A DNA stretch of 36,089 bases, taken from positions 1 to 36,089 of IMG/VR virus record IMGVR_UViG_3300033153_007919. One strand, 5' to 3'. Positions 29,970 to 36,089 of this stretch are shown here, one piece after another. Source of the DNA: a virus. Both the position numbers and the translations under genes were made by a program. Within the stretch, counting starts at the first letter, position 1; the number at the start of each line of letters is the position of its first letter. Under the pieces are notes generated by a model. It was not told the origin of the DNA. It was given only the letters and a program-made list of their open reading frames with translations, and made no database searches.

Positions 29970-30710
29970 TTAAAGTATTCATAAATCTTTAGCTCTTTTA
30001 TTTCTCTCTTCTTGTGTCATAGTTTGTATTGGTTTTACTTCTTCTTTATTCCATTTACTACTATTTCATAACCATTTATGAAATCTTCGGCTTACATCAA
30101 ATGTTTTTTGCATTTGCCATAGTTCTTTTTTTCAATTAGGTTTTTTCTCACTCCAGTATAAATAAAATTCTTTTAATTCTTTTATAATATGTTCTTGTGT
30201 TGAATTATAATTATCTGTAAAATATTTTAAATCTATTTTTTCTTTTATTAATAATTCAAGATTTTGAGTAGCGACTTTAGGAGCGACCACTATATTATTT
30301 TCTTTATTAACATTATTTTCTTTATTAACATTATTAGTTGTTGTTACTTGTTTGTTACTTGTTTGTTGATGGCTTGTTACTTGTTTGTTATCTTCTGTGT
30401 TATTTCATTGATAGTCATCATAGTTATTTACCTTTACTATCGTATAACTAGCTTGTGATTTCTTTGTTATCTCTTGTGTTGATGTTAATTTGTCTAATGA
30501 TGTTCTTACTTGTTGTACTGATAATCCAGTTTCTTCTGATAACTTATTTAGTGATGTTAAATATTCTCATCTTTTAATATCTATTCATCTCCAAGTTTTA
30601 TCTTTGAAATTAGTTTTTAATAATATATGTAAGAATAATCTAAATGTATTTGGTTCATCATACCATTCCCATTCTATTATCTTACGATGTAATTGTATAA
30701 ATCATTCCAT
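29970..30710 (-). CDS. Replication initiator/replisome organiser, DnaD-like N-terminal domain (246 aa)
   Basis: The N-terminal domain GFIQLHRKIIEWEWYDEPNT, FRLFLHILLKTNFKDKTWRG, then IKRGEYLTSLNKLSEETGLS and VQQVRTSLDKLTSTQEIT is the winged-helix pattern of phage replisome organisers. A flexible linker holds a tandem NNVNKE repeat. The C-terminal part (WQMQKTFDVSRRFHKWLGNS, ~residues 200-225) resembles the partner-binding end. It recruits host helicase to the phage origin (family knowledge). It is preceded by a promoter and an attenuator-like leader at 30722-30842. The linker Gln/Asn/Thr-rich tract is typical. Confidence 0.8.
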
Positions 30711-30721
30711 AATTATATAAA

Positions 30722-30810
30722 TAAAAAAGTGCCAAACATTCGGACAAATGTTTGGCACCTAATACTAAAGTATTATAAATACTTATTTGTCCGACTATAA
30801 ATATTTATAC
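30722..30810 (-). ncRNA. Attenuator-like RNA B: loop-complementary terminator before the replication initiator
   Basis: On the minus strand, in order: TCGGACAAAT (30794-30785), hairpin AAGTAT-TTATA-ATACTT (30784-30768), then a 12-bp hairpin GTGCCAAACATT/AATGTTTGGCAC (30758-30729) with loop TGTCCG and six U. The loop with flanking stem bases (ATTTGTCCGA) is a perfect 10-base complement of the first element, so pairing there would open or lock the terminator. The replication initiator starts 18 bases after the hairpin stem. RNA A at 33318-33398 has the same architecture with different bases. Confidence 0.7.
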
Positions 30811-30814
30811 AAGT

Positions 30815-30842
30815 ATTATATTCATTTCCTAAAATAAAGCAA
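30815..30842 (-). promoter_or_regulatory. Predicted promoter of RNA B and the replication operon
   Basis: TTGCTT (30842-30837), 16-base spacer, perfect TATAAT (30820-30815). Spacing and hexamers match the promoter of RNA A. Confidence 0.7.
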
Positions 30843-30870: not shown

Positions 30871-30892
30871 ACTAGTTAGTAATGTATTAGTA

Positions 30893-31050
30893 ATAAAAAA
30901 TTCTATTTCGTAATGAGTGATAGAATTTTTTATACCTCTCAGCTTAGGTTTTCTTTACAGCTAAGTTATATCGCCCACCAAGTAGGCTATAAGCAAAATA
31001 TAATTGGAGCGTCCTCACGCATATATTTATAACTTAATTGTTTACGCTTG
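30893..31050 (-). ncRNA. Free-standing structured RNA gene C (~155 nt)
   Basis: A non-coding segment with its own promoter and terminator. Inverted pairs on the transcribed strand are TAAGTTATA/TATAACTTA (31036-31028 with 30970-30962), closing over two hairpins: GCGT-GAGG-ACGC (31020-31009) and GCCTAC-TTG-GTGGGC (30987-30973). A third hairpin, CTTAGCT/AGCTGAG (30965-30959 with 30944-30938), shares bases with the long-range stem, so the two exclude each other. The extreme 5' ACCAAG is complementary to CTTGGT in the second hairpin. No open frame or tRNA/6S/tmRNA pattern is recognised. It is G+C richer than its surroundings, which supports function. Confidence 0.65.
30895..30931 (-). terminator. 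Intrinsic terminator of RNA C
   Basis: AAATTCTAT and ATAGAATTT form a 9-bp stem around a 13-base loop, followed by a T run on the minus strand. The element is symmetrical and could stop transcription from either side. Confidence 0.65.
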
Positions 31051-31056
31051 GTATGT

Positions 31057-32712: not shown

Positions 32713-33306
32713 TTATATGCCTTTACTGTTTTCTCTTAAAAAAATGAAACCTTTATATAATTTTGTTTTTCAATTCAATATATTGTCCAATCAAGACCTA
32801 CTAAAATTTCAATTTTTAAATACATCTTTTTGGCAATCCCAAATTTTAATTAAGTTCATATCTTTTGTATACTGAAAAACTTTTTTTCTCAGATTAGGAT
32901 TTTTCTTTCAAGCCCAATGGTTCGGTGTTTTATTTCAAAGCTTATGATAAGAGTGTAACATATTCTCAGATTTAGTACACCATTCTAGATTATTTACATT
33001 ATTATTTAACTTATTTCAATCTATATGGTTCACATCAGGTTTATTTTTAGGGTTATCTATAAAAGCTAATGCTATTAATCTACTTACTTTAAAGTTTTTT
33101 TTATCCCACCTACTCTTATATAAACAAACAACCTTATATCAGTCCTTATCTATTGCTGGAGTTAATTTCAAAATCCTTTTTATAAAATTACCTACCCTAC
33201 TTGTAAATCCAGTTGAGTATACATTTCAATCCTTTGTTACATAGTATCTATCAAAATCTTCTACATATGTTAAATCTCAACTTGCCCCAATTATTAATGC
33301 ATTCAT
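32713..33306 (-). CDS. HNH homing-type endonuclease (197 aa)
   Basis: Complete HNH core: DVNHIDGNKLNNNVNNLEWC followed by TKSEN (about residues 103-127). The Gly is TGA and the Trp TGG. The N-terminal half contains FDRYYVTKDGNVYSTG, a NUMOD4-like segment, and the C-terminal half has a NUMOD1/HTH-like end (NGNFSRSGLDNILNGKTKLY, KGFIF). It is inserted between the 33.4-35.6 kb gene block and the lysis genes, and is preceded by its own promoter and attenuator-like RNA A. As a homing-type gene it may be mobile. Confidence 0.88.
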
Positions 33307-33317
33307 AATTTTAAAAA

Positions 33318-33398
33318 TCAAAAAACTACTAGACTCCGACATCTAATAGCTTTTATATAAAGTGATAAACACTTGCTGTCGGAGATGCAAACATTTAT
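33318..33398 (-). ncRNA. Attenuator-like RNA A: loop-complementary terminator before the HNH gene
   Basis: On the minus strand, in order: CTCCGACA (33384-33377), hairpin AAGTG-TTTAT-CACTT (33374-33360), and terminator hairpin CTATTAGA/TCTAGTAG (33349-33326, one G-U) whose entire 8-base loop TGTCGGAG is complementary to the first element, then six T. Order, spacing and the AAGT...ACTT hairpin match RNA B at 30722-30810, while the complementary bases differ on both sides. That is compensatory change expected of real pairing. The HNH gene starts 20 bases after the stem. Confidence 0.72.
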
Positions 33399-33404
33399 AA
33401 GACC

Positions 33405-33432
33405 ATTATAATAATTTATTTATTTTTTGCAA
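33405..33432 (-). promoter_or_regulatory. Predicted promoter of RNA A and the HNH gene
   Basis: TTGCAA (33432-33427), 16-base spacer and perfect TATAAT (33410-33405). The sequence downstream (TTATAAATGTTT) is close to that behind promoter B (GTATAAATATTT). Confidence 0.7.
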
Positions 33433-35577: not shown

Positions 35578-36089
35578 TTAGTTAATAAATTTCCAAATAA
35601 ATCAAAGTGTTTTATTTCTTTTTCAATTACAAACAGATGATATGTGATTATGCTTAATATTAAAAAATCTATTAGCATCAGATATACTATCCCAAGCTTT
35701 TATAAAATTTCAATCTAAATCATATTGTTTTACTTTTTTAGATTGTTTATTTAATTTTCATAACATTCAAAACATTGGATTTTTTCTTCATAATATTCTA
35801 AAGGCATGTTTATGATTTTCTGAATATGTATTCCATTCTAAGTTTTCTACTCTATTATCTGTTTTATTTCAATCAATATGGTTAATTGTTTTTTTATTTT
35901 TCTTATTTATAATAAATGTAATTCATATTAACCTATGTACTAAAAAAGTTTTTCATTTTTTGTTTTTATTTAATCATACTGTTAAATATTTTTTTTTGCT
36001 ATCTATACTAAATTTTTTTATAATTCAATTATGTCATCAACTTCATTCTTTAGGAAGACTTTTAATTCTACCTAAATTACTAGCTTGGT
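35578..36089 (-). CDS. NUMOD4/HNH homing endonuclease, C-terminal part (start at 157 across the join)
   Basis: Continuation of the frame that starts at 157. It carries NHIDGNKTDNRVENLEWNTY (HNH_3 core; Gly of DGN is TGA, Trp is TGG), then HAFRILGRKNPMFGMLG and a NUMOD1-like C-terminus (SISDANRFFNIKHNHISSVC, NGKRNKTLGFIW). Domain order NUMOD4-HNH-NUMOD1 is the textbook arrangement for phage homing nucleases. Stop TAA is at 35580-35578, 11 bases before the DUF1353 start. Confidence 0.9.
35976..36089. repeat. Terminal direct repeat, right copy
   Basis: Exact copy of positions 1-114. See the left copy. Confidence 0.95.

Follow-up and report, generated by a model that had tools for sequence, protein, structure and literature searches.

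Two RNA leaders of the same design, RNA A and RNA B, are present in a 36,089-base virus record (the whole stretch of DNA analysed, referred to below as the window). In each of them, the loop of a 5' hairpin, H1, is complementary to the loop of an intrinsic terminator lying upstream of a gene (Table 1). The two may well be paralogous leader transcription attenuators, in which pairing between the loops would favour read-through; the design is well supported as a structure and moderately as a mechanism. The parts of the leaders, the complementarity of the loops, their covariation, and the recurrence of the layout in relatives can be read directly from the sequences.

The window has open reading only if TGA codes for a residue. 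The TGA codons of its terminase align with columns that are glycine in a standard-code relative, which itself has no in-frame TGA, and code 25 is thus the right one for the window. This code (TGA=Gly) is used by Absconditabacteria and Gracilibacteria, and is common to many of their phages (PMC10746230). The genes, mostly on the minus strand, include those for a tail fibre, endolysin, major head protein, terminase, Rha/antirepressor, Dam methylase, and a DnaD-like loader. The last of these follows RNA B, and an HNH endonuclease gene follows RNA A. The earlier note had one copy preceding a replication initiator; the gene is indeed a replication gene, but by PHROG assignment it codes for a DnaD-like helicase loader. 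Two HNH endonuclease genes of the window (35578-36087 and 32713-33306) belong to the same PHROG family, phrog_59, and one of them has a NUMOD1 domain. The 235-aa neighbour of RNA A and a recombinase-like gene, used as queries, returned no relatives.

Anatomy and statistical support of the leaders

The promoter, hairpin, terminator with a complementary loop, and six U residues of RNA A were found where the earlier note had placed them, and in the same order in RNA B. Folding, which had also been proposed there, recovered H1 and the terminator in both RNAs, and their loop geometry fits an H-type pseudoknot; the whole fold of RNA B has an MFE z score of −6.4. H1 starts 5–6 nt past the −10 box in either RNA and, according to the folds, carries the 5' element in its 10-nt loop. 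The element had been described as free; its complementarity to the terminator loop holds, but it is displayed by a 12–13-bp stem.

Table 1. Positions of the features of RNA A and RNA B in the window
Feature	Position	Strand	Basis or content
RNA A, whole	33432-33304	−	promoter, H1, intrinsic terminator, ATG of HNH nuclease gene
Promoter of RNA A, TTGCAA-16-TATAAT	33405..33432 (TTGCAA 33432-33427; TATAAT 33410-33405)	−	10/12 consensus match
ATAAATGTTTGC, RNA A	33398-33387	−	sequence
H1 of RNA A, 12-bp hairpin, 10-nt loop AUCUCCGACA	33365..33398	−	MFE fold and covariation with B
Element in H1 loop of RNA A, CTCCGACA (RNA CUCCGACA)	33377..33384	−	8/8 complementary to terminator loop
AAGUG-UUUAU-CACUU alternative hairpin, RNA A	33360..33374	−	weaker; overlaps H1 3' arm
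Intrinsic terminator hairpin of RNA A	33321..33354 (stem 33354-33342/33333-33321)	−	fold
Terminator loop of RNA A, TGTCGGAG (RNA UGUCGGAG)	33341-33334	−	sequence; fold
U6 of RNA A terminator	33325-33320	−	sequence
ATG behind RNA A	33306	−	sequence
HNH endonuclease gene behind RNA A	32713..33306	−	code 25; Pfam HNH_3 2.6e-9; PHROG 59 9.6e-39
RNA B, whole	30842-30708	−	promoter, H1, intrinsic terminator, ATG of DnaD-like loader gene
Promoter of RNA B, TTGCTT-16-TATAAT	30815..30842	−	sequence
H1 of RNA B, 13 bp, loop AGUCGGACAA	30774..30809	−	MFE fold
Element in H1 loop of RNA B, UCGGACAA	30787..30794	−	8/8 complementary to terminator loop
Intrinsic terminator of RNA B, loop UUGUCCGA at 30747-30740, U6 30728-30723	30727..30760	−	terminator scan and fold
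DnaD-like helicase loader gene behind RNA B	29970..30710	−	code 25; PHROG 2514 7.6e-29

A middle hairpin, AAGTG-TTTAT-CACTT, had been claimed for both RNAs. It is present in RNA A, while the corresponding hairpin of RNA B, AAGTATT-TAT-AATACTT, is in another register, and none was seen by reading in the relatives L015 and L024 described below. In folding, H1 is the stronger structure (−5.5 vs −2.7 kcal/mol in RNA A, −6.7 vs −2.1 kcal/mol in RNA B), and the two hairpins are mutually exclusive, since both use the bases of the H1 3' arm. The distance from terminator to ATG is 14–17 nt, so RNA A and RNA B would be mRNA leaders as well as possible ~80-nt RNAs.

Promoter-like sites occur in the window at chance frequency (60 found vs 53 expected in shuffles), which makes the promoter match of RNA A weak when taken alone. 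On the plus strand at the two loci, where a countertranscript of the pT181 type over the 5' hairpin would be encoded, there was no terminator, and promoter-like sites were not above chance. With regard to ribosome-mediated (leader peptide) attenuation, direct reading revealed short ATG-started ORFs across H1 in RNA A (33394-33353, minus strand, 13 codons) and L024 (near 2484, 12 codons), and none in RNA B or L015. A third likely RNA lies on the minus strand at 30880-31052, between a terminator (31108-31092) and RNA B; it has several stems, including a 14-bp A/U terminator with arms at 30893-30906/30920-30933, a fold z score of −3.3, and no match in an Rfam search.

There are exactly two occurrences each of TCGGACA and TGTCGGAG in the 36-kb window, solely as these element/loop pairs, and the element CUCCGACA has no other exact occurrence there. 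To score the layout, we used a scanner modelled on the A/B pattern, in which the hairpin, the terminator, and the complementarity of the loops contribute to the score. RNA A scored 46 and RNA B 47, while the maximum in 200 dinucleotide shuffles of the whole window was 39.5. In 1.18 Mb of other contigs, three matches scored 38 or more, two of them arising from opposite strands of a single long perfect repeat. When both loops were given, a shuffled terminator loop was equally good with P = 0.00025–0.0015 in each of four RNAs (A, B, and the two relatives). That the leaders are ordinary terminators of preceding genes with loops that match by chance, a reading to which the ready folding of AT-rich DNA lends something, is thus hardly credible: in addition to these scores, a promoter stands directly upstream of H1, and H1 itself covaries.

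Covariation and recurrence in relatives

An alignment of RNA A with RNA B needs no gaps between the −10 box and the end of H1. Among the 12 pairs of H1, eight are invariant, two have one-sided changes, two have two-sided (compensatory) changes, and none is broken, and sliding the partner along in the A/B comparison destroyed the pairing; with two sequences, a shuffle control of this covariation has no power. The loop pair is likewise kept with different bases, in agreement with the covariation that the earlier note had reported. Its suggestion that the element is duplicated or mobile fared unevenly: duplication is plausible, for A and B only, while mobility is unsupported, in that the window has just these two copies, their flanks have nothing in common, and the scans of unrelated contigs brought up no further one.

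Code-25 relatives were gathered by terminase searches, and two of them have the A/B layout with unrelated loop letters, bringing the instances to four, all in TGA=Gly phages. In L024 (+2486-2595), the loops are GTGGTTAT/ATAACCAC, pairing over 9 bp in full, and the leader lies upstream of genes for a replisome organizer and DnaB helicase. In L015 (+197-257), the loops are CCGTGAA/TTCACGG, the promoter (TTTGCTT and TATAAT) is in the same place as in RNA B, and the leader precedes a 52-aa ORF near the terminase. In both, the terminator is just 5' of the ATG. When an 18-kb segment of the L024 contig was shuffled 150 times, the L024 score of 47 was never reached; the L015 score of 38.5 was reached in one of 600 shuffles of its own contig. 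L015 is the weakest instance, as the scanner looked for the A/B pattern. The earlier note had named relatives without the complementarity, or alignment in the promoter part only, as evidence against the element; what we found are relatives that keep the complementarity with wholly different letters.

Conservation is patchy, as the apparently complete TerL relative G012 has no A/B-type layout. The ends of this 33.6-kb record (L150 start and L151 end) overlap by ~17 bases, which makes a complete circular genome probable. The other relatives are for the most part unscorable fragments, and such a leader may fall outside them. In G012 (L150 77-162), two 9-bp hairpins, ATAAGTCTT/AAGACTTAT and TCTTTGGCA/TGCCAAAGA, come after an early promoter, TTGCAA-16-TATACT; they exclude each other and overlap the first gene's start codon, and this region is possibly a translation-level cousin of the A/B leaders. 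A candidate upstream of a DnaD homologue in L002 was rejected, having 5–6 bp only, and the standard-code TerL relatives (L165-L188, L196-L229) contained no convincing instance. The DnaB of L024, used as a query, returned its own contig only, and at the DNA level A and B resembled phage records in chance AT-rich pieces only. The pattern TCGGACAA-N-TTGTCCGA occurred in at least 119 stretches of viral contigs; of the 80 listed loci that were scanned, none matched the leader layout. One contig, L189, is filed under a Robiginitomaculum MAG and has a terminase 67% identical to that of the window's code-25 phage; it is probably a mis-binned candidate-phyla phage.

The comparison of the four RNAs bears on two other readings. 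Compact H-type pseudoknots beside terminators are typical of the preQ1, SAM-II, and fluoride riboswitch classes, and the resemblance would suit a leader that senses a ligand or protein, with the pseudoknot as its aptamer. We consider this improbable: no unpaired residues are conserved across the four RNAs, the downstream genes have no common pathway, and Rfam gave nothing at gathering score, with chance-level matches only below it (E-value thresholds). Element and loop also constitute an inverted repeat in DNA, and B lies beside a replication gene, as operator or origin half-sites with only an apparent RNA look might. This is very unlikely, since the spacing of the two halves varies widely from copy to copy (31 to 62 nt), the letters of the half-sites are not kept, each half is placed exactly within a hairpin loop, and the second hairpin has its U tract on the coding strand.

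Loop pairing and the proposed attenuation

All four leaders combine a promoter, alternative structures, and an intrinsic terminator upstream of an ORF, the combination by which attenuators are generally recognised. We infer promoter activity and termination from these parts. According to the model that we prefer, attenuation by loop pairing, transcription would start on the first base of H1 or beside it, and H1 would fold first and display the 8-nt element in its loop. Once the terminator loop leaves the polymerase, it would pair with the element, yielding an H-type pseudoknot composed of the H1 stem and the element:terminator-loop helix. The 5' arm of the terminator would then be held as a crossing loop, and closure of the terminator stem would be blocked until the pairing breaks. 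With the pseudoknot formed, RNAP would read through into the gene; with the pseudoknot lost or blocked, termination would release a ~80-nt two-hairpin RNA.

The geometry of the four RNAs is consistent with such a pseudoknot. Its loops would measure 2, 2, 1, and 3 nt (L1), 0, 0, 1, and 1 nt (L2), and 23, 26, 14, and 32 nt (L3). In every case, the element lies against the H1 3' arm (L2 of 0–1 nt), 1–3 nt are left on its 5' side, and 14–32 nt cross H1, which is the canonical H-type arrangement. In nested folds of growing A and B transcripts, the element:loop antiterminator helix precedes the complete terminator. With crude energies, computed with a fixed pseudoknot penalty of 9.6 kcal/mol, the pseudoknot is more stable than H1 plus the partly formed terminator up to the point where the final stretch of the terminator 3' arm emerges. 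At ~9 nt short of the U-tract end, it leads clearly in A and L015, and comes close to a tie in B and L024. The antiterminating sign of the pairing and its strength are predictions. The loop match could instead serve dimerisation or stability of the RNA, termination being the default.

The linkers differ among the RNAs, with 11 nt in A, 1 nt in L015, 13 nt in B, and 19 nt in L024. In A and L015, they are too short for the loops to pair with the terminator closed, so pseudoknot and closed terminator should be mutually exclusive; B is borderline, and L024 would allow both. Cis kissing with both stems closed was rejected on the same grounds. A simple strand-exchange antiterminator was rejected as a common mechanism, because it fails for L024, where the 21-bp H1 is better by ~11 kcal/mol; L024 would therefore work only by true loop pairing.

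Kissing between molecules is free of the linker limit, and the ~80-nt RNA might act as a small trans-acting two-hairpin RNA that dimerises with, or kisses, sister leaders, so that template copy number feeds back on the gene. The loops of A and B differ, which would prevent strong cross-talk, neither loop has another exact target in the phage, replication genes lie behind B and the L024 copy, and the leader-derived P4 CI RNA, which terminates its own operon, is a precedent (PMC4825925). This reading is possible, but we think it rather unlikely, because copy control would be less sensible for the genes behind A (HNH) and L015 (a 52-aa ORF), and because the canonical H-type loop geometry suggests pairing in cis. 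Cognate loop pairs (−12.3/−10.7 kcal/mol) are much stronger than non-cognate A-B pairs (−7.0/−3.8 kcal/mol), as is expected if the circuits must not interfere, and equally from simple drift. A c4-like action on other phage genes was rejected, there being no exact loop match elsewhere in the phage, as was a type III toxin-antitoxin RNA (ToxI-like), as the loci have no tandem repeat and the genes are HNH and DnaD-like.

For the attenuation model, the most economical candidate signal would be a trans-acting partner that occupies the H1 loop, such as terminated RNA from another template copy. The attenuator might then be self-addressed: the terminated leader would itself be the trans regulator, by kissing the H1 loop on sister transcripts still being made. 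We offer this version tentatively and regard it as unlikely; if true, the number of template copies would determine phage gene expression with no need for a separate antisense gene, and divergence of the loop letters would keep the circuits of paralogues apart.

Comparison with known systems

The A/B design had no match in the open-access papers searched, and there was likewise no report in them of a phage RNA switch in code-25 candidate phyla. If the proposed mechanism is true, these leaders bring a phage RNA switch into the code-25 (TGA=Gly) candidate-phyla world.

Several known systems share features with the leaders. In Listeria, the terminated riboswitch RNA SreA acts in trans (PMC8079631). 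A leader termination product could regulate in both cases; SreA does so on another mRNA, whereas the only exact phage match of A and B is the leader itself. In the fluoride riboswitch, a pseudoknot and an intrinsic terminator compete as the RNA is being transcribed (PMC8752731). The fluoride and preQ1-I riboswitches are in this respect like the A/B proposal, but have a conserved ligand pocket, and no such pocket is conserved in the leaders described here. In the satellite phage P4, internal complementarity of the seqA-seqC leader controls premature termination before replication genes, and the regulator CI RNA is derived from the leader (PMC4825925). Both P4 and A/B thus have phage leaders with internal complementarity; CI RNA, however, arises by processing of the transcript and has two separate pairing sites, terminator-loop pairing is not described there, and the sequence is unrelated to A/B.

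The pT181 repC leader has a 5' hairpin, an intrinsic terminator, and antiterminator pairing, with hairpin loops used for recognition (PMC4878617). Attenuators of the pT181 type share these features with the design proposed for A and B, and both repC and B head replication genes. In pT181, the antisense RNA is separate and the antiterminator acts on the terminator 5' stem, whereas in A and B the H1 loop would act on the terminator loop, and an antisense gene is not evident. The partner of the element in A and B is the terminator loop, with a few closing bases at most, and not the terminator 5' arm; a pT181-type antiterminator was rejected for this reason. If the model is true, A and B represent an attenuator whose antiterminator hits the loop of the terminator, not its stem, an arrangement that would leave the recognition letters free to change at fixed terminator strength, as A, B, and the two relatives suggest.
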